IMG/VR virus record: IMGVR_UViG_3300042351_001561
Coordinates: 1-50,398 of that record
DNA length: 50,398 nucleotides
From: a virus
Strand: one strand, 5' to 3'
Made by a program: the position numbers and the translations under genes. The notes beneath the pieces were generated by a model that worked only from the letters and a program-made list of their open reading frames with translations, was not told the origin of the DNA and did no database searches. Numbering within the stretch: position 1 is the first letter of the stretch; the number at the start of each line of letters is the position of its first letter. Below are positions 8,327 to 32,942 of this stretch, piece by piece.

Positions 8327-8596
8327 TTATTTCTCTTTACTAAGCAATTCATCTACATATTTATCCCTTTGACTCATCAAAGATTCATTTCTTTCAATAA
8401 TCCTTTGTCTTTCATCATCAACCAGTTTCATAATCTGTTCATCCCTTTTATCAAGTTGATCTTTATAATCCGCAAGATTTGACTTGTATGTATTATTCTG
8501 GTACCATAATATACCGACCAATAATATGATCGTAAATGATTGTTCCTTTAGTTTGCTAAAGAATGTGTCCGTGATGTTGCCTTGATTTTCCGACAT
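8327..8596 (-). CDS. Small membrane protein with coiled coil
   Basis: An 89-residue protein. One hydrophobic helix at about residues 17-33 (SFTIILLVGILWY) is followed by a highly charged helix or coiled coil to the end. Like the protein at 325 it has the architecture of an inner-membrane spanin but could be any anchored coiled coil. A TATTTATA element (8607-8614) stands 10 bases before the ATG. Confidence 0.65.
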   Translation of the reverse strand: MSENQGNITDTFFSKLKEQSFTIILLVGILWYQNNTYKSNLADYKDQLDKRDEQIMKLVDDERQRIIERNESLMSQRDKYVDELLSKEK

Positions 8597-12017: not shown

Positions 12018-12037
12018 TAAATAATATGAGATTAAAT

Positions 12038-17141: not shown

Positions 17142-17165
17142 AAAAGGAGCTTTTAAGCTCCTTTT
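17142..17165. terminator. Strong bidirectional terminator
   Basis: AAAAGGAGCTT (17142-17152) and AAGCTCCTTTT (17155-17165) are perfect inverted copies with a 2-base loop, flanked by A and T runs. It separates convergent genes, and the stop of the minus-strand gene lies in the hairpin. Confidence 0.85.
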
Positions 17166-17954: not shown

Positions 17955-19316
17955 TTAATTAATGTAGTTTGTTAATTCATATCTACCAGATTCCATTCTA
18001 TATAAAGAGATCTGTAACATTTTTCTAGCTGGCATACCATCCTTTGAATCTCCCACTATTTTAAACCAACCTCTATCATCTTCTTCGCCAGGTTTAAGTG
18101 ATTTAAATTTAAATGAAGCAAGAAACTCTCCTTGTGAATACATTTTTAATGTATTTTCATTAAAATCAAATGATAAAGTAAAAACCTTTCCAGTACCAGA
18201 ATTGGTAAAGAAATCAGTAGGTTGCGTTACCGATTTTGTTCTTCCACCCGATTGACTCGAAAAAGTTTTTTCATAGTTATCTGCGGTAAAACCACCATAT
18301 TTATTTAATTCAATTATACCTAATTCAGTTACCTTAATTTTAACCTCTTTAACCATTAATTCAACGCTGTAACTAACCGTTTGACCATAAGCAACATGTT
18401 CTGGGTTAATACTTTCCCAATTAACAGTATAACCTTTATTTGTGGCATATTCTTCTGCTGATTCTAAAGCACCCGCTTGAGTCTCAAAATACGTTTCTTG
18501 TTGGATTTTTCTAGCCTCACCCATTTCTTTGTTTTCATAAACTGGACCATCTTTACCACCTCTAGTTTCCATAAAAGATTTTTCTTCTTCCTCAAGCTCT
18601 TTTTGTAATTTATCAATACTTTCCATAGCAAGATCCCAACCACCGATCGCTGACTCCTCGTCAACCTCTTCTCTAATACCTAAATTATCTAATGCGTCTC
18701 TAGTATCTTCGAACCCAGGGATATCTTTGGGTGTTTCTTGTTCATTATCAATTTTAGTTATAAGTTCTTTAATATATTCATCAGCATTCATCTTCGTAAC
18801 AACACCAGAAACAAACTCGTTGGCTTTAGTGTTTTCTTCCCCACCCAATTCATCTGCAAGAACCATAATCATACCCATCTGTTCGAAAGTCATCCTGTTA
18901 GATGGTCTATTCAAAATAGCGGTTGATTTACTAATATTCTCATCTATTTCTTCTTCAGCCTCACAATGCTCACCACATTCAGAACAAATGTCATGCATAA
19001 CAATAGGTGCACCACAACAATCTGAAAGACCTTCACCATCACTATCACTAGGGTCAAACGCTTCATTTTTTTCAAATGTTTCTGGATCTCTATCTTGTTT
19101 ATTAGCGGTTGCGTAATAAACTTCTTCACCTTTTTCTTTACCGTATTGATCTTTGAATTTATCTTTAACCTCATCGTTTTCACCCATCTCTTCTTCTCTC
19201 ATTGAGTTTACTATATCTGAAGGGGAAAGTTCTTTTATGGTATCTGGGCTAGTATGGGTAACACCCATCATTTCTTGTATTCTGGTAAGTTCTTCGTTTA
19301 AACTAATTTTTTTCAT
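17955..19316 (-). CDS. Tagged multidomain protein with zinc ribbon
   Basis: A 453-residue protein. The N-terminal tag (SLNEELTRIQEMMGVTHT) keeps the first LNE but not the second cleavage-like site. Residues about 58-80 (DQYGKEKGEEVYYATANK) are a phage-conserved motif. Residues about 97-120 are a zinc ribbon (LSDCCGAPIVMHDICSECGEHCE). A long acidic helical region follows, and the last 160 residues look beta-rich. Function is unknown. A TATTTATA element at 19329-19336 precedes the start. Confidence 0.7.
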   Translation of the reverse strand: MKKISLNEELTRIQEMMGVTHTSPDTIKELSPSDIVNSMREEEMGENDEVKDKFKDQYGKEKGEEVYYATANKQDRDPETFEKNEAFDPSDSDGEGLSDCCGAPIVMHDICSECGEHCEAEEEIDENISKSTAILNRPSNRMTFEQMGMIMVLADELGGEENTKANEFVSGVVTKMNADEYIKELITKIDNEQETPKDIPGFEDTRDALDNLGIREEVDEESAIGGWDLAMESIDKLQKELEEEEKSFMETRGGKDGPVYENKEMGEARKIQQETYFETQAGALESAEEYATNKGYTVNWESINPEHVAYGQTVSYSVELMVKEVKIKVTELGIIELNKYGGFTADNYEKTFSSQSGGRTKSVTQPTDFFTNSGTGKVFTLSFDFNENTLKMYSQGEFLASFKFKSLKPGEEDDRGWFKIVGDSKDGMPARKMLQISLYRMESGRYELTNYIN

Positions 19317-19336: not shown

Positions 19337-19383
19337 CTTTTATAAATGAAAAAAAGACGGTACTGGTAATTTAAATGTTAAGT

Positions 19384-19456
19384 CGTCCTAGCTGGATTCG
19401 AACCAGCGGCCTTTTTCGTATCAGGAAAATGCTCTAACCAACTGAGCTACAGGACG
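19384..19456 (-). tRNA. tRNA-Ile(GAT)
   Basis: Full cloverleaf on the minus strand: acceptor CGTCCTG/TAGGACG with one G-U, anticodon stem TTTTC/GAAAA, loop CTGATAC giving anticodon GAT, and a GGTTCGAATCC T-arm. Last tRNA of the array in transcription order. Confidence 0.95.
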
Positions 19457-19472
19457 ATAAATTAGATTTTGC

Positions 19473-19517
19473 ACAATAAAGTAGGTTGCTTTATCGTAGC
19501 AAAAACAGGTTTATTGT
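19473..19517. repeat. Structured spacer between tRNA-Ile and tRNA-Arg
   Basis: ACAATAAA (19473-19480) and TTTATTGT (19510-19517) are perfect inverted arms enclosing a smaller TTGCT/AGCAA pairing. No T tract follows, so it looks like a processing hairpin rather than a terminator. Confidence 0.5.
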
Positions 19518-19590
19518 ACCTTCAGAGAGACTCGAACTCCCAACCCTTTCATTCGTATTGAAATACTCTAATCCATTGAGCTATGAAGGT
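19518..19590 (-). tRNA. tRNA-Arg(ACG)
   Basis: Cloverleaf with acceptor ACCTTCA/TGAAGGT, anticodon stem TTTCA/TGAAA, loop ATACGAA giving ACG, and a GAGTTCGAGTC T-arm. An A34 anticodon would normally need deamination to inosine. Confidence 0.93.
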
Positions 19591-19596
19591 ATTTTG

Positions 19597-19670
19597 GGTG
19601 ACTGATGGGTTTCGATCCCACTACCTTTGGTTCCACAAACCAATGCTCTCCCGATTGAGCTACAGACACC
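19597..19670 (-). tRNA. tRNA-His(GTG)
   Basis: Anticodon stem TTGGT/ACCAA with loop TTGTGGA gives GTG. The extra 5' G (G-1) opposite C73, diagnostic of tRNA-His, is present. The acceptor has one T-T mismatch, and the T-loop is ATCGAAA rather than TTCGAAT. Confidence 0.9.
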
Positions 19671-19678
19671 ATGTATGG

Positions 19679-19750
19679 TAGCGAGAGGGAGTTTCGAAAT
19701 CCCGACCTTTCGGATATGAGCCGAATGCTCTTCCTCTGAGCTATCTCGCC
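19679..19750 (-). tRNA. tRNA-Met(CAT)
   Basis: Acceptor GGCGAGA/TCTCGCT, anticodon stem TTCGG/CCGAA, loop CTCATAT giving CAT. It could be elongator Met, or Ile2 if lysidine-modified. The acceptor starts with a G-U rather than the mismatch of initiators. Confidence 0.92.
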
Positions 19751-19755
19751 ATTTT

Positions 19756-19772
19756 CTCGCCAATCTGGCGAG
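19756..19772. repeat. Hairpin copying the tRNA-Met 5' end
   Basis: CTCGCCA and TGGCGAG pair around a 3-base loop between tRNA-Gln and tRNA-Met. On the minus strand GGCGAGATAG, the first ten bases of tRNA-Met, has an inverted counterpart here, so the precursor could fold alternatively. Confidence 0.45.
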
Positions 19773-19779
19773 ATAGTTG

Positions 19780-19850
19780 TTGTCCTGAGAGGATTCGAAC
19801 CTCTATTCTCTGGATCAAAACCAGATGTGCTGCCTTTACACCACAGGACA
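19780..19850 (-). tRNA. tRNA-Gln(TTG)
   Basis: Starts TGTCCTGTGG as tRNA-Gln species do, acceptor TGTCCTG/CAGGACA, anticodon stem TCTGG/CCAGA, loop TTTTGAT giving TTG. Confidence 0.93.
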
Positions 19851-19856
19851 ATATAG

Positions 19857-19929
19857 TGGAGCCAGTGGGACTTGAACCCACATCCTCTACCTTGCAAGGG
19901 TAGCGCTCAGCCAATTGAGCTATGACCCC
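19857..19929 (-). tRNA. tRNA-Ala(TGC)
   Basis: Acceptor GGGGTCA/TGGCTCC containing the G3-T70 (G3:U70) pair that identifies tRNA-Ala, anticodon stem CTACC/GGTAG, loop CTTGCAA giving TGC. It begins 1 base after the stop of the HExxH gene. Confidence 0.95.
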
Positions 19930-19930
19930 A

Positions 19931-20389
19931 TTAATTTTGTCGAAGACGTATCTGTTTTAAACAATGGGTCAACAGATACTGTTCAACATTAGGTATTTTC
20001 CTTAAGAAGTCATACTCATATGAATAACAAAGTATTTCTTCTCTTGGTGATTCTTGAATACCCCTATGTCTAAGATAAAGATGTAAAGATTCGTGTACAA
20101 TAACAGCAGCGAGATTATTTAAGGATTTAGCCTTAGCATCTGTAGATGATATTATTATACTTCCTTTTGTATCTTTAGAACCCTCATTTGTTGAGTAACC
20201 ACCAGACCAAAAAGTTATTTTATCACAAACTTGTAACACAAGTTTATAAGTTGTGGTATCTGTTTGCTTAATAATCGCTAATGCGCTATCAGCTTTTAGA
20301 TCCCAACCATCCCCAGCTTTATCTATTACAATTTGTGATTTACAAATCGTTGTGGATAAAACCATTATGATTATTATTAGTTTTCTCAT
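19931..20389 (-). CDS. Exported HExxH metallopeptidase-like protein inside the tRNA array
   Basis: A 152-residue protein. The start at 20389 gives a signal peptide (MRKLIIIIMVLSTTICKSQ). The mature part has VIVHESLHLYL, an HExxH zinc-protease motif, followed about 15-20 residues later by EEILCYSYEYDF, which could supply a third Glu ligand. Family is not clear. An exported zinc protease in a tRNA array is odd: it may act on the cell wall or envelope, or be a moron gene. A TATTTATT word (20393-20400) precedes the start, so it may also be transcribed on its own. Confidence 0.7.
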   Translation of the reverse strand: MRKLIIIIMVLSTTICKSQIVIDKAGDGWDLKADSALAIIKQTDTTTYKLVLQVCDKITFWSGGYSTNEGSKDTKGSIIISSTDAKAKSLNNLAAVIVHESLHLYLRHRGIQESPREEILCYSYEYDFLRKIPNVEQYLLTHCLKQIRLRQN

Positions 20390-20401
20390 ACTAATAAATA
20401 G

Positions 20402-20484
20402 TGCCAGCAGGTGGACTCGAACCACCGAACTCAAATGAGAGCGGGTTTACAATCCGCTGCAATTGCCGCTATGCGATACTGGCA
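20402..20484 (-). tRNA. tRNA-Tyr(GTA)
   Basis: Class II tRNA with a long variable arm (CTCATTTGAG). Acceptor TGCCAGT/GCTGGCA, anticodon stem GCGGA/CCCGC with an A-C at the loop end, loop TTGTAAA giving GTA. The base after the acceptor is C rather than the usual A. Confidence 0.85.
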
Positions 20485-20624
20485 AGTAAGGAAAGAGGAA
20501 GATGGTCTAGTGGACATCCTCTTTTACGATCGGCATTACTTAGGTGAATACCTACAAACTCCGATCACACCAGTCAGTATTCACTCTCGAACTATTAATG
20601 TGATCATTCCCCGATCAACCTTTG
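20485..20624 (-). ncRNA. Structured spacer, possible small stable RNA
   Basis: A 140-base gap inside the array that does not fold as a tRNA. It contains AAGAGGA/TCCTCTT arms (20493-20499, 20517-20523) with a GTC/GAC inner stem. It also has GATCGG/CCGATC arms (20528-20533, 20561-20566) enclosing a perfect TAGGT-GAAT-ACCTA hairpin. T4 also carries two stable RNAs of unknown function in its tRNA cluster. Whether this is such an RNA, a decayed tRNA or a processing spacer is open. Confidence 0.4.
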
Positions 20625-20697
20625 TACACCCTATAGGACTCGAACCTATGACATCTGCCATGTAAGGGCAGCGCTCTACCAACTGAGCTAAAGGTGC
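20625..20697 (-). tRNA. tRNA-Val(TAC)
   Basis: Acceptor GCACCTT/AGGGTGT with two wobbles, anticodon stem CTGCC/GGCAG, loop CTTACAT giving TAC, normal T-arm. Confidence 0.94.
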
Positions 20698-20702
20698 ATG
20701 TG

Positions 20703-20782
20703 TACCCCTGGCAAGACTCGAACTTGCAATGCTTTCGCTCTGGTTTCTAAGACCAGCGGCTATACCATTCGCCTACAAGGGC
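20703..20782 (-). tRNA. tRNA-Leu(TAG)
   Basis: Class II tRNA with variable arm AGCGAAAGCAT, acceptor GCCCTTG/CAGGGGT, anticodon stem CTGGT/ACCAG, loop CTTAGAA giving TAG. Reads CTA and CTG. Confidence 0.93.
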
Positions 20783-20788
20783 ATTTAG

Positions 20789-20861
20789 CACGCCTGGCTG
20801 GATTCGAACCAACGACACCTGGTTTTGGAGACCAGTGCTCTACCAACTGAGCTACAGACGT
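20789..20861 (-). tRNA. tRNA-Trp(CCA)
   Basis: Acceptor ACGTCTG/CAGGCGT, anticodon stem CTGGT/ACCAG, loop CTCCAAA giving CCA, discriminator G. Confidence 0.94.
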
Positions 20862-20870
20862 GTGTATTTG

Positions 20871-20940
20871 AGTATAAGGTTGGAATCGAACCAACACCGT
20901 TGGTGTTGCAGACCAACCGACCACCACGATCAACTTATAC
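20871..20940 (-). tRNA. tRNA-Cys(GCA)
   Basis: Acceptor GTATAAG/CTTATAC, anticodon stem TTGGT/ACCAA, loop CTGCAAC giving GCA, discriminator T as expected for tRNA-Cys. The D-loop is unusually short. Confidence 0.88.
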
Positions 20941-20945
20941 ATTTG

Positions 20946-21020
20946 TGTCCCCGATGAGATTCGAACTCATGACTCCCTCATTAAAAGTGAGGTGCTCTAA
21001 ACCAACTGAGCTACGAAGAC
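20946..21020 (-). tRNA. tRNA-Lys(TTT)
   Basis: Acceptor GTCTTCG/CGGGGAC, anticodon stem CCTCA/TGAGG, loop CTTTTAA giving TTT, normal T-arm. Confidence 0.94.
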
Positions 21021-21026
21021 ATTTTG

Positions 21027-21102
21027 TCAGGATAGCTGGATTCGAACCAGCGATCCCCTGCGTCCAAGGCAGGTAGGGACGACCTGACTCCCCCATATCC
21101 TG
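21027..21102 (-). tRNA. tRNA-Pro(TGG)
   Basis: Acceptor CAGGATA/TATCCTG, anticodon stem CCTGC/GCAGG, loop CTTGGAC giving TGG. First tRNA transcribed, 30 bases after the attenuator's T run. Confidence 0.94.
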
Positions 21103-21717: not shown

Positions 21718-21725
21718 TATTTATA
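21718..21725 (+). promoter_or_regulatory. TATTTATA element (exported-protein cluster)
   Basis: TATTTATA ends 20 bases before the ATG at 21746 and heads the plus-strand cluster 21746-30214, whose genes are spaced by -4 to 12 bases. Confidence 0.5.
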
Positions 21726-21745: not shown

Positions 21746-23644
21746 ATGAAAAATTTCTTTTTAACGCTAGTGCTGGCGTTTGTAACCGTAATTGGTTATG
21801 CACAAACAACCGCACCATCAAATGGTAATTGGGTTATCGTTGACTCTTCTTACAATGTTGGTCCGCAATCTCAAGGTTACACTTTAGCTAACCTTTATTA
21901 TGACAACACAACAACGACTAAAATCGCTGGTTTACAGTTTCGTGTATTTTACGACAAAGTAGCTTTTGGTGGTGCAAAACCAATTGTAACTTTACAGTAC
22001 AGTTCTACTGATCAGTACATGCAATATGTTGCCGATTCTGTTAACGGTAATATTACTGTTACATTGGCTTACACAGGTACAAACACCGCATTTACATATT
22101 CTACTGGTACTGCGTTCCAAATAAAGTTCTTCCATCAAAACTCAACAGCCTTCCAAGCTTTGACAAGTATTGATAGTTTAAAGGTAACTGGTACTTTGAC
22201 ATTTCCATCTTATGCCTCAACAATTGCTGGTATGGATACAACGTTATCTTTACACAGTTATGGTGGTGAATTTAAGATGAATAGATTGAAATACCACGGT
22301 AGATTCACAAACGTAACAGGTTCTGGTTCTAAGAACATTACAGTTGCTCTTGAGAAAAGACCTAAGACATCAAGTGGTGCTTGGACTCAAGTAAAGCTTG
22401 ACACAACAGATCTTACTGGTTATTTCGCTTTTGATGAAATCTTGGATACAACTTATTGGGATGCTCATTTATATGTTAAGGGTGATACAATGGGTGTTGG
22501 TAACACGGTATCTGTTGCTGATGCACAAAGAGTTAACAAATATATTCTTGGCGAAATGACACCAACTGGGTTTGATTATTACGCTTCAGACGTTAACGGA
22601 TCAAATAGTATTACAATCGCTGACGTATCAGCTATCTATGGTCGTTTAGCGGGTAGATTCTCTGTATGGCCAAACTCTGTACAAGATGTAAGATTCTTCA
22701 CAGTTTCACAATATGGAACCATCAACGGTTCTTCAACTAACTATACCTCATCAATTGCTGGTGTAACTAACCTAACATTTGATATCATTGCTGGTCAACC
22801 AGACTCAGTAACGTATTATGTATTAGGTGGTGGTGATGCTAACGGTACTGGATTCAACATGGCTCGTACAATCCCTATTGAAATTTTAAACCCAAGCAAA
22901 ACTCCTAAATATATTATTGACGAAACTGTTGAGTATGATTTCCCTACATCAACAATCGAAATTAATTTACCAAAAATCGAAATCACTGAAGGTAGTTTAG
23001 TAAACGTACCAATGAAAGTTTTAACTTATGGTAATCAAGTTGGTTCAGCTCAATTAGCTTTAGCTTATGACAAAACTTTATTGGAGTTCAAGGGTATTAA
23101 AACTGAAGAAAAATTTATGAACTGGATGTCATTCTTAAACCCTAACAACGGTGTTATTGAATGGGCTGGTGCTGATATGAGTAATAATAAATATTTAGCT
23201 AATGATGGTGATAATATTTTAACTTTACAATTCACAGCACTATCACCACAAACAAGCTGGAACAATAGTCCTTTATATGTTATTAGAAAATATGCTGGTG
23301 ATGCAAACGCAACCGATTTAAGAATAACACCAACAAATGGTGTTGTTAAAATATTCAGAATAAATGGTGGTGGTGTATTAACAAAAGATTGTGAAATAAT
23401 GGTATGCCCTAACCCAACAGAAGGTTTGGCTCTTGTGAGTTTTAGCGTACCTGAAGATGGTGAGATAACCGTTGGTTTTTATGATGTAAACGGAAAATTA
23501 GTATACACGGTTTTTAGTGGTAAAATGTATGAAGGTAAGTACCTTTATCCAGTTGACTTAACTAACGTTACACCTGGTACATATTACGGTGTTTTACAAA
23601 CAGGATCTCAAACCAAAACAAATAAAACAATAAAACTAAATTAA
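21746..23644 (+). CDS. Exported protein with dockerin-like and cohesin-like regions and T9SS C-terminal domain
   Basis: A 632-residue protein. Signal peptide at residues 1-19, ending GYAQ. Residues about 27-180 look like a cohesin-type beta sandwich. About 255-305 is dockerin-like, with paired VADAQRVNKYILG and DVNGSNSITIADVSAIYGRLAG calcium-loop repeats. About 405-540 is a second cohesin-like domain (VPMKVLTYGNQVGSAQLALAYDKTLLEFKGI). The last 80 residues (CPNPTEGLALVSF, GEITVGFYDVNGKLVY, LTNVTPGTYYGVLQTGSQTKTNKTIKLN) are a type A sorting domain for the type IX secretion system. So the protein is predicted to reach the surface of an infected Bacteroidetes cell. This is host-like architecture in a phage genome. 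Confidence 0.8.
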   Translation: MKNFFLTLVLAFVTVIGYAQTTAPSNGNWVIVDSSYNVGPQSQGYTLANLYYDNTTTTKIAGLQFRVFYDKVAFGGAKPIVTLQYSSTDQYMQYVADSVNGNITVTLAYTGTNTAFTYSTGTAFQIKFFHQNSTAFQALTSIDSLKVTGTLTFPSYASTIAGMDTTLSLHSYGGEFKMNRLKYHGRFTNVTGSGSKNITVALEKRPKTSSGAWTQVKLDTTDLTGYFAFDEILDTTYWDAHLYVKGDTMGVGNTVSVADAQRVNKYILGEMTPTGFDYYASDVNGSNSITIADVSAIYGRLAGRFSVWPNSVQDVRFFTVSQYGTINGSSTNYTSSIAGVTNLTFDIIAGQPDSVTYYVLGGGDANGTGFNMARTIPIEILNPSKTPKYIIDETVEYDFPTSTIEINLPKIEITEGSLVNVPMKVLTYGNQVGSAQLALAYDKTLLEFKGIKTEEKFMNWMSFLNPNNGVIEWAGADMSNNKYLANDGDNILTLQFTALSPQTSWNNSPLYVIRKYAGDANATDLRITPTNGVVKIFRINGGGVLTKDCEIMVCPNPTEGLALVSFSVPEDGEITVGFYDVNGKLVYTVFSGKMYEGKYLYPVDLTNVTPGTYYGVLQTGSQTKTNKTIKLN

Positions 23645-23656
23645 AATTTAAAAAAA

Positions 23657-23986
23657 ATGTCAGAAGAAACAAACGTACCTGAATCAGACGGAACATGGTC
23701 AGGTTTAAAGAAAACAATAATTGGTATCATTTCAACAGCTGTTATGGCTGGTGGTACTTACTTTACCACAACTTTATTTGGTGGTGGTGATAAAGAAGAA
23801 ACAAAGACAGAACAAGCGGCTCCAGCGCCAGCAATCAACATAAGTGTCGATAACTCTTCTAAAAATAATGCTGGTGGTGGTACTAACACAATCATTAAAG
23901 AAAAAACAACTGTGGTTGAAAAAGCTGCACCAGTTAAAGAAGAAAAACCAGCTAAAAAATCAGAAACTGAAGATAGTCCTTGGTAA
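23657..23986 (+). CDS. Small membrane protein, possible holin partner
   Basis: A 109-residue protein. One hydrophobic, Gly/Ala-rich helix at about 20-42 (TIIGIISTAVMAGGTYFTTTLFGGG) is followed by a long charged Lys/Glu/Pro tail. No family recognised. Its stop overlaps the next start (TAATG), so the two membrane proteins are probably translated together. Confidence 0.6.
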   Translation: MSEETNVPESDGTWSGLKKTIIGIISTAVMAGGTYFTTTLFGGGDKEETKTEQAAPAPAINISVDNSSKNNAGGGTNTIIKEKTTVVEKAAPVKEEKPAKKSETEDSPW

Positions 23987-24378
23987 TGAAAAAGAAAATA
24001 AATAAAACAAACGAAGAAGATATGAAACTTAAAGAAACTTTAAAAAATATGGTTAGTACACCAGCCCCTGTGCAGGTAGAAGATAAAAATAGATTCTATT
24101 ACATGTTGCAACAAATGCAAGCTAATAGATGGAGAATAACAGCAATTGTATTAGGATTGTTCACATTAATCATTGTTGGTATCAACGCAGCTGTATTTTT
24201 AGGTGCATCTATTGGTGAGGATTGGAAAGAAATGTTATTAATTTTATTAGGTGCCTTTGTTGGTAATTTAAATAAGGTTGTTGACTACTGGTTCAACTCA
24301 GAAGATAGGGACAAAATGTTAATCCAAAAAGTTGACGAAGAAGACGGTGTATCTTTATCGAATACAACAGAAGTTTAA
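23986..24378 (+). CDS. Two-helix membrane protein, holin-like
   Basis: A 130-residue protein. The ATG at 23986 overlaps the previous stop; an in-frame TTG two codons upstream is less likely. Hydrophobic helices lie at about 50-75 and 80-97. LLILLGAFVGNLNKVVDYWFNSEDRDK resembles small holin-like proteins of T4-like marine phages. If a holin, it would release the endolysin encoded at 32115. The start of the CsgG-like gene follows 1 base after its stop. Confidence 0.6.
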   Translation: MKKKINKTNEEDMKLKETLKNMVSTPAPVQVEDKNRFYYMLQQMQANRWRITAIVLGLFTLIIVGINAAVFLGASIGEDWKEMLLILLGAFVGNLNKVVDYWFNSEDRDKMLIQKVDEEDGVSLSNTTEV

Positions 24379-24379
24379 T

Positions 24380-25099
24380 ATGAAAAAATTATTATTCATT
24401 ATATTACCAATATTATTCTGTGCTTGTAAAACTCAGGCACAGAATATTGGTAGTGTTAAAACCGAAGAATATAAAGCTAGTTTTGAACAGACTCAATCAA
24501 TTGATGTTGTTTCAAACTATACCGACACAATCAAATATCCTATCCAATTATTAAAAATTGGGTTTACCGAAGAACTTTATGAAATGTACCCTGAATTAAA
24601 AGATAAAAGGGTTGGTTTGGGTGTAACTAATATTGTAATCGAATTTCTTGAAATGACTAATAGGTTTGTCTTCACTGAAGATAAATTAGAGATTAAAGAA
24701 AGAATGGTTAATCAATTTAAAGCATCTGATAAAGGTTTTACAGAAAACAAAGTTGATGGTAGAGGTAAAATTAAATTAGCTAAATACTTTGTTTACATTG
24801 AGGTTTATGATTTTAGTGTATCTGAGGATGAAGTTGTTAAGGTTAGTGGTAAAGCTACTGCAACACAAACAACCAGATTAGGTATGCAAGTTAAATTTGT
24901 TGACGCTGAAACTGGTGAAGTTATTGTTGGTTCTGGTTTAGGTGAAGCAAAAACAGTAAAAATGTCAACAATTCTAGATGATGTGGATGAAATCAAATTT
25001 AATCAATCAACAATAGGAACATCAACTAAAAAGGCGTTAGAAACTGCGTCATCTAGACTTGTTGTAAAATTAATTAAAAAAGGTTTATTCAAGAATTAA
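24380..25099 (+). CDS. CsgG-like lipoprotein
   Basis: A 239-residue protein. The ATG at 24380 gives a lipoprotein signal with a Cys at the cleavage point (LPILFCAC, KTQAQ). The body resembles CsgG/HfaB: KRVGLGVTNIVIEFLEMTNRFVFTED early, KVSGKATATQTTRLGMQVKFVDAETGEVI in the middle, and STIGTSTKKALETASSRLV at the end. CsgG forms the nonameric outer-membrane channel that exports curli subunits. Neither CsgA-like repeats nor CsgE/F are evident nearby, so the exported substrate is unknown. Confidence 0.75.
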   Translation: MKKLLFIILPILFCACKTQAQNIGSVKTEEYKASFEQTQSIDVVSNYTDTIKYPIQLLKIGFTEELYEMYPELKDKRVGLGVTNIVIEFLEMTNRFVFTEDKLEIKERMVNQFKASDKGFTENKVDGRGKIKLAKYFVYIEVYDFSVSEDEVVKVSGKATATQTTRLGMQVKFVDAETGEVIVGSGLGEAKTVKMSTILDDVDEIKFNQSTIGTSTKKALETASSRLVVKLIKKGLFKN

Positions 25100-25105
25100 A
25101 GGTGC

Positions 25106-26701
25106 GTGAGAATAAAATTCCTTATAGTTATTTTTTTATCTTTGCTGTGCAATATAACAACTGCGCAGACATTTAACTATTCTTACACCGATCCTTGCAA
25201 TGGCAAGGTTTACAATTTATCAATTCCTTACGGGCAAAATCAAATAGCTGTAACGTACTACGGTCAAGTAAATACGTTTACAGCTAATGATTTTAATAAC
25301 GGTGCGTTCGATAACTGGGCCGCTGGTGTTTTTAATCAATATAAGAACGCTTCGCCATGCGGTAGTATAGGAACAGCTGTTACTGTATCACAAACACAAA
25401 GCACTGCTTTAAATGTTATTAGTATATTTGGGGCTTTATCAGCTATTAGTGATATGGCATCTAGTGGTACGGGTAATATAATGGCGGCTGCTGGGTCTGT
25501 AAATAATGTTGGTGGTGGTAAAGGTGATTCCAAACCTTCTGACAATAAAAAAGAAAATAAAAATGGGGACAATTCTAGTGGATCAACAACTTCTGGTGGT
25601 TCTGGTAGCGGAAGTAATGGTAGTTCTAATAATACTGAAAATAATAATGGTTCGAATGGGTCGAGTGGATCAGGTGGAACCACTGGATCAGGTGCTTCAG
25701 GTGGATCAACTGGGTCAAGTGGATCAGGCGAACAGGCTGGTGGATCAAGTGCGTCAGGTGGAACAACTGGATCAGGCGCTTCAGGTGGAACCACTGGATC
25801 AGGTGAAAAAACTGGAGAGTCAAGTGGTGCAACCAACAACAATCCTGGTGGGTCTGGTGCGTCAGGTGGAACCACTAACAACGGTTCTGGTGGCTCAGGT
25901 GGTACCACCACAAGCGGCTCAGGTTCTGGTGGCGGGACTGGTAATGGTTCTACACCAAATCAAACAGATGGTGGTTCGGATAAAAAATCGGATGCTGTAG
26001 GTGGGACAACTAATGCAGTAAAAAGTGGTAGTAGTAGCAATAGCAAAGGCTCAGCTACAAGTAAAAACGGTGGTAGACCATCTATACTCATGAGTAGTGA
26101 TTTAGTTGGTTTTCAATTTAATGAAGGTGAGGTTAGTAAAGGTTCAAAAGTTAATGCGGGTTACTCATCAGTAAGATATGATGGTCTAAGATCACATGGC
26201 GTTATGGTTGATTACACATCTTCAATACAAGGTGGTAATATCACTGGTTATTATGCCTGGATAAATCGTAAGGCTATTACGTTACTTTCTAATACGGTTA
26301 CAATTGGTTTTACTGGTAGTGGGTCTATGTATAACACTATTGCTTTTGGGCAGATGAGAAGTATTAAAAAATTTAAAGCTGTTTATATGCTTACAGCCTC
26401 AGCTGGACAAATATATAAAGAATCCTATTATGGTTCCGCTGCAATTGTGGGTGGTAATAGAGATTTTAAAGTGGGTAAACGTATTGATATTAAAACAATG
26501 GCTTTATTTGTTTATGCACCGTTTGTTAGGTATTATGATGATGCGGTGTTAAAATCACCATTTGTTATTTTACCAATTGTTGGTATGAACTTGGGTGTTA
26601 CAAAAACATTTAAATTAAATTTTAATTTTGGTGGTGCTTATTCTATTGGTGATAACGTATTAAACTATACGGTAATGATTGGTACAAGATTGGCATTATG
26701 A
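25106..26701 (+). CDS. Exported protein: N-terminal domain, Gly/Ser linker, outer-membrane barrel
   Basis: A 531-residue protein with a GTG start followed by a signal peptide (IKFLIVIFLSLLCNITTAQ). Residues about 20-125 form a small domain. Residues about 130-320 are a Gly/Ser/Thr/Asn low-complexity stretch (GGTTGSGASGG units). Residues about 330-531 alternate polar and hydrophobic positions like a beta barrel and end MIGTRLAL. A surface-spanning protein with an extended linker is likely. The stop overlaps the next start (ATGATG context). Confidence 0.65.
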   Translation: MRIKFLIVIFLSLLCNITTAQTFNYSYTDPCNGKVYNLSIPYGQNQIAVTYYGQVNTFTANDFNNGAFDNWAAGVFNQYKNASPCGSIGTAVTVSQTQSTALNVISIFGALSAISDMASSGTGNIMAAAGSVNNVGGGKGDSKPSDNKKENKNGDNSSGSTTSGGSGSGSNGSSNNTENNNGSNGSSGSGGTTGSGASGGSTGSSGSGEQAGGSSASGGTTGSGASGGTTGSGEKTGESSGATNNNPGGSGASGGTTNNGSGGSGGTTTSGSGSGGGTGNGSTPNQTDGGSDKKSDAVGGTTNAVKSGSSSNSKGSATSKNGGRPSILMSSDLVGFQFNEGEVSKGSKVNAGYSSVRYDGLRSHGVMVDYTSSIQGGNITGYYAWINRKAITLLSNTVTIGFTGSGSMYNTIAFGQMRSIKKFKAVYMLTASAGQIYKESYYGSAAIVGGNRDFKVGKRIDIKTMALFVYAPFVRYYDDAVLKSPFVILPIVGMNLGVTKTFKLNFNFGGAYSIGDNVLNYTVMIGTRLAL

Positions 26702-28980
26702 TGAAAAAGTTTTTTGTGTTCTTGGTGATTGTCTTAAGTGCGGTAAAACTAAACGCACAGGCAACATCTGTTACATTAGGCGGTACCTCATCAAGTTTAT
26801 CCGCAACTTATAATACAGCTACTGTTGTTGACCCTAATTTAACAATAACTGCAAATGGTAATATAACAGGTTTTAGGGTTCAAATATCACAAACATATAT
26901 CACTGGGGATGTCCTAACTTACACAGGGACTTTACCGAGCGGTGTAACGGCAAGTTGGAACTCAACAACAGGTGTTTTAAGTTTTAACGGTACAACAACA
27001 GCGGCTAACTGGCAGACTCTCTTAAGAACGGTAACTTTTAAATCAACAACAACAACTTGTTACGCAAATCTTAGAAGGGTTACTTTTGTTGCTGGTACAG
27101 TTTATTATAACCCATTAACATCACATTTTTATGAATATGTTGCGGGTAGTACGAGCTGGACAAACGCATATAATGTATCAACAGCTAAATCTTATTTTGG
27201 TAGGGCTGGTTATTTGGCGACAATATTATCTGAAGCGGAGAACAACTTTATCTGGAAATTAATGTCGAGTGATGCTTGGTTTGGAGCTTCAGATGACTAC
27301 GGTTATATCAACACCGCAAAGGGTTCAACTGTTTACGCTAACCAAGCTGCATCTGAAGGTAAATGGCATTGGGTAACTGGTCCTGAAAAAGGCCAAAACT
27401 TTTCAAATGGGAATACACCAAGCACAACCTTAGTATCAGGTATGTATCATAAATGGGCTGGTGGTGAACCTAACGGTACCTCAGAAGCGTTTGGACAATT
27501 CTATTCATCAAATAATGGGCAATGGAATGATTTAGCTAACAGTACATTAGGTGGCTATATTTGTGAATACGGGGACATGCCAGGTGATTTAACATCAAGC
27601 ATAACCATTTTTACAAGGGATCTTACGATTAGTAATGGTTCTTCTGGCACAATCAGTGGTGGTAATATAAATGTTTGTTCTGGTTCAAATAGTACAACAT
27701 TGACACTTAACAATATGACTGGTAGTGTTGTTAGATGGGAGTCTTCATTTGATAACTTTTTTACTGCTGGTACGACAATTACAAGTACATCATCAAGTAT
27801 AACAATCTCAAATATAACAAAAACAACTTATTACCGTGCAATTGTAAATTCAACGAGCCCTGTTAGTTGTAACTCATTAGCATCATCGAGTATATTTTTA
27901 TCCGTAAAACCAACTCTTTCTGGGTCTGTGTTTGCGGCAAACAATACAATATGTTCTGGTGGGGTCGCTGAATTAACTTTATCTGGCCAACAAGGTAGTG
28001 TTAATAAATGGCAACGATCTACAAATAATATAAACTGGACTGATGTAACAAATACAACAACATCTTTAACTGAAACAATATCATCATCAGGTAGTTATTA
28101 TTATCGTGTTGAGGTGCAAACACCAAACTGCGGTAGTGCTGTTTATTCAACAAGTAAATTAATTACTGTTACAACAGGTACGCCACCAACAGGTGGTTCG
28201 GTTTCATCAGCAACGCATGCAACGTCAACAAACTCTGGGACTTTAACACTAAGTGGTTACACTGGTACGGTTGTGAAATGGCAAAGGTCAACAAACAGTG
28301 GGGTTACTTGGACCGATATAGTTAATACAGCGGCAACTTATAATTACACTAATCAGACGGATGGTACATTATTTAGAGCACAGTTACAGAGTGGTTCGTG
28401 TGGATACGCTTACTCAGCTTCTGGTATGATAATAGTGGGTCCATTTACTTACTCAGGTTATGTTTATAACGCTGAGAATGTAGGTGTATCAAACGTCACT
28501 GTAAAACTATTTTATAAACAAAAAACTTCTTCAACCTATAGTTTATATAGTTCATATACAACCGATGCAACTGGTAAATATACAATAACAACGACAGCCA
28601 GTTCAAGTTTAAATGATTATAGATTAACAATTGACAATGCACCGTTATCAAGTCCAACAATAACAGATATTAACTTTTTTAACCAAAAAGTTTTAACACA
28701 ATCTTTTAACGCTAAAGATTACTATAGGATGGATGTTAATAATAATAATATTTTAACAATAACAGATGTTTATTTAATCTACTATAAAATTAATTTAAAC
28801 AGTTGGTTATTTACAATACCAACGTACAGGTTATTTACCTCAGCTCAATGGTCGGTAATTAACATATCAAATACAAATTTAGTCCCAACTTATTCAGGGG
28901 CGCAATCATTAACATTTGACGCTTTAGTGTTAAACGGAGCAACAAATATTTATATAATAAGAACAGGTTACAAACAATAA
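26698..28980 (+). CDS. Large exported C-type-lectin/Ig-like protein
   Basis: A 760-residue protein. Signal peptide ends NAQA. Residues about 130-300 are a C-type lectin domain: WFGASDDYGYI, EGKWHWVTGPEKG, KWAGGEPNG, NGQWNDLANSTLGGYICEYG. Residues about 315-575 are repeated Ig/PKD-like modules (VNKWQRSTNNINWTDV, VVKWQRSTNSGVTWTDI). Residues about 580-760 hold a carboxypeptidase-regulatory-like sandwich and a dockerin-like stretch (RMDVNNNNILTITDVYLIY). Predicted surface adhesin. No clear T9SS sorting domain is seen at its end. Confidence 0.75.
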   Translation: MMKKFFVFLVIVLSAVKLNAQATSVTLGGTSSSLSATYNTATVVDPNLTITANGNITGFRVQISQTYITGDVLTYTGTLPSGVTASWNSTTGVLSFNGTTTAANWQTLLRTVTFKSTTTTCYANLRRVTFVAGTVYYNPLTSHFYEYVAGSTSWTNAYNVSTAKSYFGRAGYLATILSEAENNFIWKLMSSDAWFGASDDYGYINTAKGSTVYANQAASEGKWHWVTGPEKGQNFSNGNTPSTTLVSGMYHKWAGGEPNGTSEAFGQFYSSNNGQWNDLANSTLGGYICEYGDMPGDLTSSITIFTRDLTISNGSSGTISGGNINVCSGSNSTTLTLNNMTGSVVRWESSFDNFFTAGTTITSTSSSITISNITKTTYYRAIVNSTSPVSCNSLASSSIFLSVKPTLSGSVFAANNTICSGGVAELTLSGQQGSVNKWQRSTNNINWTDVTNTTTSLTETISSSGSYYYRVEVQTPNCGSAVYSTSKLITVTTGTPPTGGSVSSATHATSTNSGTLTLSGYTGTVVKWQRSTNSGVTWTDIVNTAATYNYTNQTDGTLFRAQLQSGSCGYAYSASGMIIVGPFTYSGYVYNAENVGVSNVTVKLFYKQKTSSTYSLYSSYTTDATGKYTITTTASSSLNDYRLTIDNAPLSSPTITDINFFNQKVLTQSFNAKDYYRMDVNNNNILTITDVYLIYYKINLNSWLFTIPTYRLFTSAQWSVINISNTNLVPTYSGAQSLTFDALVLNGATNIYIIRTGYKQ

Positions 28981-28986
28981 AAAATT

Positions 28987-29475
28987 ATGAAACAGTTTAT
29001 TTTTACGCTAATTTTTATACTCACAGTATCAAATTCAGCATTTTCTCAAACCAGTGAACCGATCTCAGTGTTCCCTCAAATTTGTGTTAGTGTAGATTCA
29101 GTTTACAGCACAATGAAAATAAAAGAATTTAAAGATAGAAATATCTTATTTGGTGTTAAACAAATCACTGAAGAAGTCTTATCCGAAAAGTATTCGTTAT
29201 GTGAAAAAAACACCATACCAGTTATGGTTGAAATCATTAGAGTTGGTACACCATCAACCACTTTTAGAATTGCTGGTATTGGTGCGGCAACGGAAACGAC
29301 ACAAATATTACTAAAAGTTCATTTTGGTGACACAATTGTCGATGGTATTGGTGAGTCAGCTACAACCGCTAGTTACGCCTTTATTGAATTAAAAGAAGGG
29401 AAAGTTCCTTTTAGTAAATCATCAATAGGTATTGCGATGAAAAAGGCTATAATTGATGCGATAAGTAAATTATAA
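28987..29475 (+). CDS. Second CsgG-like exported protein
   Basis: A 162-residue protein. Signal peptide ends AFSQ. The C-terminal half (GAATETTQILLKVHFGDTIVDGIGESATTASYAF, PFSKSSIGIAMKKAIIDAISKL) parallels the ending of the protein at 24380, including the SxIG..xKKA motif. It is a shorter member of the CsgG-like family, perhaps a partner of the first. Confidence 0.65.
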   Translation: MKQFIFTLIFILTVSNSAFSQTSEPISVFPQICVSVDSVYSTMKIKEFKDRNILFGVKQITEEVLSEKYSLCEKNTIPVMVEIIRVGTPSTTFRIAGIGAATETTQILLKVHFGDTIVDGIGESATTASYAFIELKEGKVPFSKSSIGIAMKKAIIDAISKL

Positions 29476-29476
29476 T

Positions 29477-30214
29477 ATGAAATATTTTATAACAGCACTA
29501 TTAATATGCGTTTTTGGCCATTTAGAGGCCCAAATAAAGAGTTTTGACTTAGGTGGGGTATTACTTACAGGAAACAATAAAAACGTTCAGATAACGTCTA
29601 AAATGAGTTATGAACTTAATAATAAAAAAAAGGATATTGGTGTTAGTTTAAACCCGTATTATTTTTTATTTTATGGTCAAAAAAATAATGAGTTTATTAA
29701 ACAATCTGAAGACGCTAGGTTAAACATATTTTCCTGGAAAGAGATTAAAAATAATTACAGCGCTATTTTATTCTCAACAGTAGAGCATTCGCTGGTTAAA
29801 AATTTAGATTTAAGTGTTTCAGGTGGTATAGGTGTTAAAAAATCTTTTAAGACAAATAAATTGGGCGGTAGTGTATCACTCGCTTATGTGTATGATAGAT
29901 CAGAGATATCAAAACTTTGGTTCGGTAGTAAGAGAGCTTCTTACAGACACAGTTTAAAATATAAAGTTAAAGATATTACTATTGAAAATAATGTTTTAAT
30001 ACAACCAGCTGTTGCGTCAACTAATGATTTAATATGGGCGAGAAATACTGTTGGTAATTATAATTTATCAATAACCAAATCCATAGCTAAAACAACATCA
30101 ATTGGCTTTGTTTACGAGGGTTATTTATCAACAATTAGTTCTGAATTAAATAAAAATATACAACCTTTAGATCAAAGATTTAGCCTCATATTCAAGTATT
30201 CGATTCCTAATTAA
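29477..30214 (+). CDS. Outer-membrane beta-barrel-like protein
   Basis: A 245-residue protein. Signal peptide MKYFITALLICVFGHLEAQ. The mature sequence shows alternating hydrophobic strands with Tyr/Phe girdles through to SLIFKYSIPN. It resembles DUF481-type barrels. It starts 1 base after the CsgG-like gene and ends the cluster. Its 3' end overlaps the convergent small gene at 30167. Confidence 0.65.
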   Translation: MKYFITALLICVFGHLEAQIKSFDLGGVLLTGNNKNVQITSKMSYELNNKKKDIGVSLNPYYFLFYGQKNNEFIKQSEDARLNIFSWKEIKNNYSAILFSTVEHSLVKNLDLSVSGGIGVKKSFKTNKLGGSVSLAYVYDRSEISKLWFGSKRASYRHSLKYKVKDITIENNVLIQPAVASTNDLIWARNTVGNYNLSITKSIAKTTSIGFVYEGYLSTISSELNKNIQPLDQRFSLIFKYSIPN

Positions 30215-30427: not shown

Positions 30428-30682
30428 TTAGATAGCTGTACCATCTAAGAATAGTGTACCTAAAGTAGCGATAGCCGTTTTAGCCTCAGCCAATGTCTCA
30501 ACTGCGCTTCCGTTAGCTGTTGATCCAATAGCGATAATACCAGCGTCATCACTAGCGCCATAGAACTGAATCCCGTCATTTTGAACGATAGCAGCAATAT
30601 AACCAGTTTCTGGTACTAATTGTGCACCATCTTCATACTCACATACTACAGCTTTTCCGTTTAAATTTTTTACAAATGCCAT
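30428..30682 (-). CDS. Small hypothetical protein
   Basis: An 84-residue protein, Ala/Gly-rich and mostly beta with a C-terminal helix (AFVKNLNGKAVVCEYEDG, IQFYGASDDAGIIAIGSTANGSAVETLAEAKTAI). It resembles small virion surface or decoration proteins only in composition. Last gene of the minus-strand run. Confidence 0.6.
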   Translation of the reverse strand: MAFVKNLNGKAVVCEYEDGAQLVPETGYIAAIVQNDGIQFYGASDDAGIIAIGSTANGSAVETLAEAKTAIATLGTLFLDGTAI

Positions 30683-30720
30683 TTTAATTGTTTTTTTAGT
30701 TTTTTGTTTATTTTATTTTA

Positions 30721-31203
30721 TTAATTTTTTTTAGTGCCAGTTCCTGTCATTTTTTGGATATAGGAATCTACTAATCTACTAACAGCTTCAGGTTTCTCAT
30801 CCGCTTTAAATTTTACTTTTATTTTAGCCATACCAGATCTATCGGTATTTTTACCAGAATCAACTTCAATACCTTTAATATTGTGTTGATACCCCTTCTT
30901 TTTAAAAAGACCTAGTAAAGATTTTTTAAGATCAGATACCTCACCCTTACCATCCCCAAAAATAAGTCTAGCTTCAAATTCAATATCTAATTCATCTAAA
31001 CCAATAGACGAGTGATCAGCTAAAATATAAAGCGGTACATCCAAAGTTTTATCCCCTATTACAAAGGTTTGAAGTTTGGGTGTACCATCTTCATTAAAGT
31101 AGTTTCTGAGAGCATTAATATGCTGTCTTTCACTTATACCCTGAGAAACCATTGCGGCCTCTAAAAGCCCACCTACTAACTCCTCAATATTTAATCTTGA
31201 CAT
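30721..31203 (-). CDS. DUF2589-like protein
   Basis: A 160-residue protein. The ATG at 31203 is chosen because a host-type promoter overlaps the longer start at 31224. The start MSRLNIEELVGGLLEAAMVSQ and the later beta region (LDELDIEFEARLIFG, MAKIKVKFKADEKPEAVSRLVDSY) fit DUF2589, as in the next gene. Function of the family is not known to me. Confidence 0.6.
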   Translation of the reverse strand: MSRLNIEELVGGLLEAAMVSQGISERQHINALRNYFNEDGTPKLQTFVIGDKTLDVPLYILADHSSIGLDELDIEFEARLIFGDGKGEVSDLKKSLLGLFKKKGYQHNIKGIEVDSGKNTDRSGMAKIKVKFKADEKPEAVSRLVDSYIQKMTGTGTKKN

Positions 31204-31221
31204 ATATGTTGTAATTTTATA

Positions 31222-31252
31222 CAAAAGTAGTAAAATTTTTTCATAAAGTCAA
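31222..31252 (-). promoter_or_regulatory. Host-type promoter
   Basis: On the minus strand TTG (31252-31250), 20 bases, TACTTTTG (31229-31222), 19 bases before the ATG at 31203. Confidence 0.75.
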
Positions 31253-31262
31253 GTTATTGGTA

Positions 31263-31862
31263 TTAAGCGTTTGCGTTAACAGATGGTGCGATTGTAGTCG
31301 GTTCTAACATTTGTGTTAGGTAATCCGATAATTTCAACATACCTTCTGTTGGTGGCAATTGTTCTGCGTGTACTTTTACTTCATATTTAGCTGAATTATC
31401 TGTACTTCTTGTGTTCTCTTTGTGAGTTGCAACACTACCAGACATATTAACTGAATATTTCATACCCCAGAATCCACCAGTTGCACTAGCACTAAAGCTA
31501 CCGCTTTTATCTTCTGATGTTTTGTCTACCTCAGATGTTTTAACTTCCATAGTAAAAGCGATATCAGCTGATGTGATAGCTAACGCTGGAAGTGGAACCA
31601 AAGGTAACATCGCAACTTTAGAATATAAAGTTTTAACTGATTGAGTTCCATCTGTAGGATCGGTCATAACTCTTTGCATTTGAACGTCTAAAGAACGAGC
31701 TGTTGTATTACCGTCTTTATCTGTTTGGAATGCAACTTCGTTGATGTACTTCCATGTTACATCGTTTAATTTTGCTTGTCCCTTCGCCATACCAACGATA
31801 GGTGACACGATCAGATCTTCAATAGGAAGACCTGTAAATTGAGCGGAAATGTCTGCTGCCAT
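31263..31862 (-). CDS. DUF2589-family protein
   Basis: A 199-residue protein with the family's order of elements: an N-terminal helix over LPIEDLIVSPIVGMAKGQAKLNDVTWKYINEVAFQ, a strand with LDVQMQRV, a LPLVPLPALAITSADIAFTMEV core, a Gly/Ser loop (GSFSASATGGFWGMKYSV) and a closing VKVHAEQLPPTEGMLKLSDYLTQML. Bacterial members often occur in adjacent pairs, as here with 30721. Role unknown; co-location with the endolysin suggests a late or virion-linked function. Confidence 0.75.
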   Translation of the reverse strand: MAADISAQFTGLPIEDLIVSPIVGMAKGQAKLNDVTWKYINEVAFQTDKDGNTTARSLDVQMQRVMTDPTDGTQSVKTLYSKVAMLPLVPLPALAITSADIAFTMEVKTSEVDKTSEDKSGSFSASATGGFWGMKYSVNMSGSVATHKENTRSTDNSAKYEVKVHAEQLPPTEGMLKLSDYLTQMLEPTTIAPSVNANA

Positions 31863-32114: not shown

Positions 32115-32942
32115 TTATTTCAATAAGTTATAGAATTCATTAAAGTGTTTAATACGATCGTCAAGACCTATTGTACCACCATTAACTCTCTTCGTTACAG
32201 CTGTAACGGTTGCTGTGTCAGCGCCTTTATCACAAATAGACCATAGGTTATTTGAGTTAAAAAAGAATGCTGCTGAAGCTAAAGGATATTTAGTTGCCAC
32301 TAACTCTGGGTTTTGTAAGATGTTTTCCTCAACCATTTTATCAAACGCTGTATAGTTTGATTTACCAGTTAATTGGATATAACCTCTACCACAAAATTTG
32401 AAACCTTCACCAGATGCCTCATCACCATTACCCATACGAGATGAATAAACACGATTAGCAATCTTTTCTGGTTGGCGTGAATAAGACTCACTTATATTAC
32501 CAGGAAAATATTTTGGGAATATTTTTTTAAGACCATCAGCACTATAATTTAAATTTTCTTTTACAGCTTTAAAACCACCTGATTCGTGACCGCATTGCGC
32601 TAAGAAATGGGCTAATCTTAAAGTGTTTGTAATACCAAATTTAGCTGCTGTGTCAGGGATCTGAGCAATAACCGCATCAGGAACGTGACCTTTTAATGCC
32701 TCTAACTTAAAGCTAGATGCTGGAATAGCTACAGGTGCAGCAGCTGGTACTGAACCTTCGTTCAAACCCATTTTTGCCCAAGTTCCATCACCAACAATAC
32801 CGTCAGCTGTTAACCCGTTTTTAGTTTGCCATTCTTTGACTAATTTTTCTGTACCAGGGCCAAAACTTCCGTCTGGGCTTGTACCTAATTTCGCTTGGAG
32901 TTTTTTTACATCATCTCCTTTTGAACCTACTTTTAATAACAT
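32115..32942 (-). CDS. Endolysin: peptidoglycan-binding plus GH19 domain
   Basis: A 275-residue protein. Residues 1-58 are a PG_binding_1 domain (VGSKGDDVKKLQAKLG, DGSFGPGTEKLVKEWQ, VGDGTWAKMG). A Pro/Ala linker follows. Residues about 75-275 are a GH19 lysozyme/chitinase-like domain with LAQCGHESGGF (catalytic Glu), YFPGNISESYSRQPEKIANRVYSSRMGNGD and GEGFKFCGRGYIQLTG. No signal peptide, so it would need a holin (candidates at 23657 and 23986). The linker has an MGLNE match that I do not count as a tag. Confidence 0.85.
   Translation of the reverse strand: MLLKVGSKGDDVKKLQAKLGTSPDGSFGPGTEKLVKEWQTKNGLTADGIVGDGTWAKMGLNEGSVPAAAPVAIPASSFKLEALKGHVPDAVIAQIPDTAAKFGITNTLRLAHFLAQCGHESGGFKAVKENLNYSADGLKKIFPKYFPGNISESYSRQPEKIANRVYSSRMGNGDEASGEGFKFCGRGYIQLTGKSNYTAFDKMVEENILQNPELVATKYPLASAAFFFNSNNLWSICDKGADTATVTAVTKRVNGGTIGLDDRIKHFNEFYNLLK

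Follow-up and report, generated by a model that had tools for sequence, protein, structure and literature searches.

The window analysed here is the whole of a viral record of 50,398 bases (IMG/VR record IMGVR_UViG_3300042351_001561), which carries tail-type genes, an endolysin gene and 13 tRNA genes. Between positions 21746 and 30214 lie eight genes, P1 to P8, which a first-pass annotation of the DNA had described as a tightly spaced cluster for exported proteins. All eight open reading frames were found on the plus strand, separated by gaps or overlaps of a few bases, and the description of one transcription-unit-like phage cluster of exported surface proteins was upheld, comprising a CsgG-fold pair, a barrel, a lectin and a protein sorted by the type IX secretion system (T9SS). 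The start of P4 was corrected to the ATG at 24380. Signal peptides and membrane helices were judged by eye, gene calls in the loci of relatives were mechanical, and the viral records compared were mostly fragments. A PHROGs search with the eight cluster proteins gave nothing above weak noise. The features are as follows.

P1, 21746..23644, plus strand: 632 amino acids; signal peptide, N-terminal beta region, dockerin-like repeats, cohesin and T9SS type A sorting domain
P2, 23657..23986, plus strand: 109 amino acids; one membrane helix and a long low-complexity tail, from the family alignment
P3, 23980..24378, plus strand: 132 amino acids; two-helix membrane protein from the family alignment, holin-like by anatomy only
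P4, 24380..25099, plus strand: exported protein with a predicted CsgG fold; best conserved member of the cluster
P5, 25106..26701, plus strand: signal peptide, small N-terminal domain with a long helix, disordered linker and a predicted 12-strand outer-membrane barrel
P6, 26698..28980, plus strand: exported lectin-type protein with a dockerin-like C-terminal part; variable member
P7, 28987..29475, plus strand: exported homologue of the C-terminal part of P4
P8, 29477..30214, plus strand: exported protein, possible barrel
TATTTATA element, 21718..21725, plus strand: late-promoter candidate of the cluster, 20 bases before P1
Second TATTTATA, 28947..28954, plus strand: 40 bases upstream of P7
Endolysin gene, 32115..32942, minus strand: peptidoglycan-binding and GH19 domains, 1.9 kb from the cluster
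U0, 19931..20434, minus strand: exported peptidase-like protein, in or beside the cluster in many relatives
U50, 8327..8596, minus strand: one helix and a coiled coil, i-spanin- or BhlA-like; other phages have it within the cluster

Viral contigs of up to 434 kb yielded 205 relatives of P4, confirmed by tblastn, of which 80 were kept; relatives of P1 numbered 28. The fetched loci shared a recurring order, P1-P2-(P3 or another small membrane protein)-P4-P5-P6-P7, which was maintained at identities down to about 45% for P1 and P4 and at lower values for P6 and P7. The gene order, which the first-pass annotation had proposed to look for elsewhere, was thus present in dozens of diverged phages as well as in a cultured phage, and synteny on this scale is far from chance. 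When 84,980 bacterial and archaeal species, each represented by a single genome, were searched with P4, four matches were returned; phage-like contigs accounted for three of them, and the fourth lay in an Ignavibacteriales genome. Among 395 genomes of the Bacteroidota, the phylum of genome G002, the single match lay on the phage-like contig of G002. P5 gave no match in 399 genomes of the family of G002, a set that contained no positive control. The families are almost confined to phages, so that the term 'host-like' had to be dropped, and by its distribution the cluster is a phage-owned module.

The cultured relative is vB_FspM_immuto (NC_055915; immuto below), a lytic phage of Flavobacterium sp. 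LMO8, in which a homologous cluster extends from gp013 to gp019 and is preceded by an exported nuclease gene (region gp012-gp019). P6, P1, P2, P4 (68% identity), P5 and P7 are located in this region, whereas P3, P8 and U0 are absent, and the proteins are annotated as lectin, cohesin or hypothetical. P1 is split in immuto into two genes, gp014 and gp015, each with a signal peptide, so that the dockerin-like half and the cohesin-T9SS half are separate proteins. The gp014 protein is homologous to the dockerin-bearing half of P1 and has no Pfam match of its own, while gp015 carries the cohesin and the T9SS domain. This arrangement suggests that the two halves may dock.

Signal peptides of Bacteroidetes type were recognized in P1, P5, P6, P7 and P8, five genes, as many as the annotation had counted. 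The glutamine after the cleavage site is invariant across the relatives of P1 and nearly so across those of P5. The cohesin and T9SS assignments of P1 held in the window (5e-8 and 7e-7, respectively), while its dockerin match (7e-4) fell just under the Pfam cutoff; dockerin type I repeats were detected at E<0.01 in 12 of 40 P1 proteins. The T9SS type A sorting domain matched both TIGR04183 and PF18962 and was present, together with a signal peptide, in all 40 relatives, and the cohesin (PF00963, above cutoff) was found in 38 of the 40 at E<0.01. In two loci, P1 is broken by an in-frame TGA directly before an ATG (L021 at 8349, L038 at 8120), near the point at which the immuto gene is split; the second part has no signal peptide there. 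Recoding was considered at these sites and set aside in favour of gene fission or truncation, as a further gene of L038 also stops at TGA. The C-type lectin of P6 was weak in the window (1e-3) and clear in immuto (3e-15) in Pfam searches, and the modules in relatives were Lectin_C, LamG_3 or GEVED. With a mean identity of 80% within the clade of the window, P6 was the least conserved protein of the cluster. The idea that the P6 lectin was copied from a tail domain of the same phage was rejected, as the LamG domain of P6 in L016 has no second copy in its 155-kb record; the similarity between P6 LamG and tail LamG domains is remote (27-30%, E about 1e-5).

The annotation had also listed two CsgG-like proteins, a reading that holds for P4 by predicted fold and for P7 as a homologue of P4. 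The AlphaFold model of P4, built from 43 sequences, had a mean predicted local distance difference test score (pLDDT) of 73, and its best PDB match in Foldseek was CsgG itself (4uv2; E 6.6e-8, probability 1.0, template modelling score about 0.5), with PelC further down the list. The Pfam family CsgG (PF03783) did not match P4 of the window, of immuto or of locus L100, while the control, CsgG of HTVC008M, matched at 4.8e-53 and the Ignavibacteriales relative of P4 at 1e-6; a PDB sequence search with P4 gave nothing meaningful. The best fold match to CsgG, taken together with a Pfam profile that matched only the HTVC008M CsgG and the Ignavibacteriales relative, indicates that P4 is a diverged protein of the CsgG superfamily, as far as the model goes. 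The pore-hairpin motifs of CsgG, as they occur in HTVC008M gp015, were absent from P4 on inspection, and since Pfam CsgG matched neither P4 nor P7, the secretion pore proposed for P4 and P7 was not established. The annotation had predicted one lipoprotein; P4 does have a lipobox-like cysteine in the window, but any cysteine at this site occurred in only 25 of 43 relatives, not all of them with a lipobox, and relatives without it appear to have ordinary signal peptides. For P7, homology with the C-terminal part of P4 was supported by hhalign (E 2.7e-6) and by cross-hits between hidden Markov models. In the Ignavibacteriales genome (L111, 9974-16013) a P4-like and a P7-like gene lie side by side, followed by genes that read as a long CsgG-like gene and then a CHASE2-type sensor gene; this pair is a possible bacterial source of the phage pair.

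P2 and P3 are the two small membrane proteins predicted by the annotation. In the family alignment of P2 the C-terminus is conserved, with acidic residues and a final tryptophan. P3 showed a SLATT match below cutoff, and its slot is occupied in several phages by U1, a holin-like two-helix protein. An outer-membrane barrel was confirmed for P5 at the level of the AlphaFold fold, in which an N-terminal domain containing a long helix is joined by a disordered stretch of about 200 residues to a confident 12-strand barrel (pLDDT about 85-94 over most strands). Its best PDB matches in Foldseek were FapF (1.4e-5) and, close behind, autotransporter barrels; barrels match each other readily. P8 had 35 matches, mostly in the window's own clade. 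An exported NUC1-type nuclease (U15) and U0 recur in the cluster across relatives; the U0 family was found in 77 loci and carries an HExxH-type motif, and its domain search gave only a weak mod_HExxH match (E 0.07). In record G786 the U50 gene is found between those for P2 and P4, and in L024 and L077 it is in or adjoining the cluster; its profile matches were weak (phrog_1625, 1e-4; phrog_13, an Rz-like spanin, 0.0018). The labels holin-like and spanin-like are based on anatomy and weak profile matches.

The endolysin of the window matched phrog_181 (3.8e-66) and the Pfam peptidoglycan-binding and GH19 families. In 35 non-redundant loci with at least 3 kb of flank on each side, this endolysin was located within 2.5 kb of the cluster in 23, and the endolysin, U1 or U2 (similar to a PHROG endolysin, 1.5e-12) was located beside it in 28. 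Rough arithmetic puts chance adjacency at about a few per cent in genomes of 100 to 400 kb. Across 47 representative loci the endolysin was placed downstream on the same strand in 11, upstream on the same strand in 8, upstream on the opposite strand in 6, downstream on the opposite strand in 2 and inside the cluster in 1 (L109). That the arrangement changes while proximity is kept speaks for a functional connection of the cluster with the lysis genes. In five loci (L020, L024, L044, L048 and L074) the endolysin gene ends 13-25 bases before P1, which is consistent with both being on one transcript.

The annotation had placed the cluster behind one TATTTATA element. This element is present at 21718-21725, and the second copy upstream of P7 means that it is not the only one. 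The window contains 18 copies of TATTTATA, compared with 6.9 expected, and the element precedes 13 genes, among them P1, U50 and the LamG and collagen-like tail-type genes. In immuto, TATTTATA occurs within 70 bases upstream of 17/71 genes in structural regions (terminase, portal, sheath, tube, tape measure and others, assigned by us from the annotation) as against 6/154 other genes (Fisher p 1.3e-5). Both gp013, the first cluster gene, and gp192, the first gene of a U1-endolysin-holin group, carry the element. The sequence TATTTAT was found upstream of P1 in 13 of the 25 loci where P1 leads its unit, with 0.8 expected. TATTTATA is accordingly termed a late-promoter candidate, and we infer that the cluster is expressed late. 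A different motif, TATxTTTAGxTAT (L107, L112; immuto 22-76 kb), lies before no fewer than 21 non-structural genes, most of which are small and hypothetical; in immuto it precedes 21/154 other genes and 0/71 structural genes, and it is likely the early promoter of the phage group of immuto.

Late expression, the neighbourhood of lysis genes and proteins assigned to the inner membrane, the outer membrane and the surface together point to a role at the release stage. We propose, with a probability of roughly 0.4, that the cluster is a late, phage-owned module that remodels the host envelope and assists the release of progeny. P2 and P3 would be situated in the inner membrane, with the long tail of P2 reaching outward, and P4 and P7 would build assemblies of CsgG fold on the inner side of the outer membrane, in cooperation with the P5 barrel; the linker and the N-terminal domain of P5 would hang in the periplasm. 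P1 would exit via the host's own T9SS and be fixed to the surface, where a cohesin-dockerin interaction may attach P6 to it. With the endolysin at work, the outer membrane and the surface layer would be weakened or opened by this complex, and the exported nuclease and the peptidase-like U0, which are found in many relatives, would clear debris. A more specific form of this proposal, a trans-envelope complex that finishes lysis, in which a phage scaffold is placed outside by the host T9SS and the phage's CsgG-fold and barrel proteins work on the outer membrane from its inner side, would be a previously undescribed feature of phages of T9SS-bearing Bacteroidota; we regard it as rather unlikely in its entirety.

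Several observations weigh against a role in release. Breaking a membrane requires neither lectins nor a T9SS surface anchor, both of which fit surface display better. The module was found in 2 of 12 records with immuto-related capsids, which are mostly fragments and weakly informative, and such patchiness among phages with related capsids indicates that it is not universal lysis machinery. Seven of the 35 loci had no lysis-type gene nearby, and immuto, where U1 adjoins the endolysin, is an exception to the adjacency, with its holin-endolysin group about 27 kb from the cluster. The loci share ancestry, so that the adjacency counts are not independent and are inflated. U1 and P3 are holin-like by anatomy only, and the late promoter is deduced from the association of a sequence motif with gene classes.

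The annotation had suggested three roles, namely blocking of superinfection, aggregation of cells and envelope disruption at lysis; the gene neighbourhood and the late-type promoter favour the release stage, and the first two are less favoured. A lesser chance is given to surface display that masks or alters the receptor, with T9SS-anchored P1 carrying the lectin P6 so that glycans are covered, which would lead to a late block of superinfection or keep progeny off debris. The Llp protein of phage T5 acts likewise on its receptor. In keeping with masking, P6 varies more than any other exported member and has C-type lectin, LamG_3 and GEVED modules exchanged for one another, the signal for T9SS display is present in every P1 relative examined, and tail-type genes of the window also use LamG_3 domains. 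However, the P6 LamG of L016 is single-copy and tail LamG similarity is remote, late timing fits poorly with the exclusion of other phages, and the CsgG-fold pair and the lysis genes nearby are left unexplained.

Quite unlikely, in our estimate, is an adhesin that makes cells clump or keeps siblings together, giving progeny access to new hosts ('sibling capture', as proposed for the curli of pelagiphages), a role that the lectin, cohesin and dockerin on the surface would permit and that was proposed earlier for phage CsgG modules (PMC7029224, PMC9599517). No curlin, CsgF or CsgE was detected in the cluster, the absence of clumping was reported for phage Melnitz (PMC9004378), and the link to lysis genes would go unexplained. 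A small chance is likewise assigned to a true secretion system, in which P4, P7 and the P5 barrel export cargo (P6, nuclease, peptidase) for scavenging or clearing. The closest folds, CsgG for P4 and FapF for P5, both belong to amyloid exporters, and exported nuclease and U0 genes recur in the cluster; many porins, however, match 12-strand barrels nearly as well, the pore-hairpin motifs are missing from P4, and no dedicated cargo was identified. The annotation had named a single recent bacterial insertion as an outcome that would refute its proposal. Such an acquisition of surface genes from bacteria by one phage, for which the bacterial style of the signal peptides and the T9SS domain might speak, was rejected in view of 205 viral relatives with a shared order, the same set in a cultured phage and one match in 395 Bacteroidota genomes that was itself on a phage-like contig.

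Further features were observed in the window around the cluster. The 13 tRNA genes lie just upstream of it (19382-21102, minus strand), with the U0 gene among them. Between the cluster and the endolysin (30428-31862, minus strand) are a pair of DUF2589 genes (matches at 1.9e-31 and 1.1e-13) and one gene for a small protein; among all fetched loci, the DUF2589 pair occurred only in close relatives. A collagen-like open frame at 43754-50398, with more than 2215 codons of GTSGSSG-type repeats, runs off the end of the record. A motif like LNEEIxRMKxMMGLNE, terminal or internal, is common to many otherwise unlike proteins, including ADP-ribosyltransferase-like and NUDIX-like ones (902-1510, 1515-2606, 3083-3934, 17153-17683 and 17955-19316 on the minus strand; 5222-5710, 5718-6755, 12026-12796, 12827-13639 and 13650-14570). 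By analogy with T4 internal proteins, it could be a head-targeting or prohead-protease sequence.

The breaching of the Bacteroidota outer membrane by phages has been little studied, and no recognised spanin was listed for one Bacteroides and two Croceibacter phages (PMC6139136). The present data indicate that large Bacteroidota viruses carry their own conserved gene set for exported envelope proteins, which may help to open the cell surface at release. A phage protein family, P1, that uniformly bears a host T9SS sorting signal implies that the phage depends on T9SS for surface placement, and the presence of this conserved, phage-specific module in a cultured phage with a cultured host makes its role testable.

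The first-pass annotation knew of no described phage system of this composition. This is true in detail, and no described T9SS-cohesin phage cluster was found in the open-access texts searched, but phage CsgG/CsgF curli modules have been published from SAR11 and OM43 phages, i.e. pelagimyophages, HTVC023P-type pelagiphages and methylophage Melnitz, with sibling capture, superinfection defence, uptake and control of lysis as proposed roles (PMC7029224, PMC9599517, PMC9004378); a lysis role was thus suggested independently (PMC9004378). Phage lysis cassettes with spanins (PMC6139136) resemble the cluster in its adjoining endolysin, holin-like and spanin-like genes and its inner- and outer-membrane parts, whereas the set described here is far larger, includes surface-displayed lectin and T9SS proteins, and has a putative role in membrane disruption. 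Bacterial exporters of the CsgG/PelC type are similar in the fold of P4, and FapF in the predicted architecture of P5 (N-terminal domain, linker and 12-strand barrel); unlike these systems the cluster is without substrate genes, and sequence similarity to them was undetectable except via the Ignavibacteriales intermediate that matches Pfam CsgG. The phage curli (type VIII secretion) modules are likewise phage-encoded outer-membrane modules of the CsgG superfamily, but they have a true CsgG (PF03783, 4.8e-53) and CsgF, neither of which was detected here. None of the eight window proteins had a Pfam match to CsgF or curlin (CsgF control, 4.7e-16), and the cluster profiles did not match HTVC008M, including its CsgG; a true curli system was therefore rejected, the positive controls having matched. 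In contrast to the phage curli modules, the cluster adds T9SS, cohesin, lectin and barrel parts. Their curli partners are all missing from it, and from the comparison of sequences it is a different, T9SS-linked version of the phage CsgG modules, carried by phages of the Bacteroidota.

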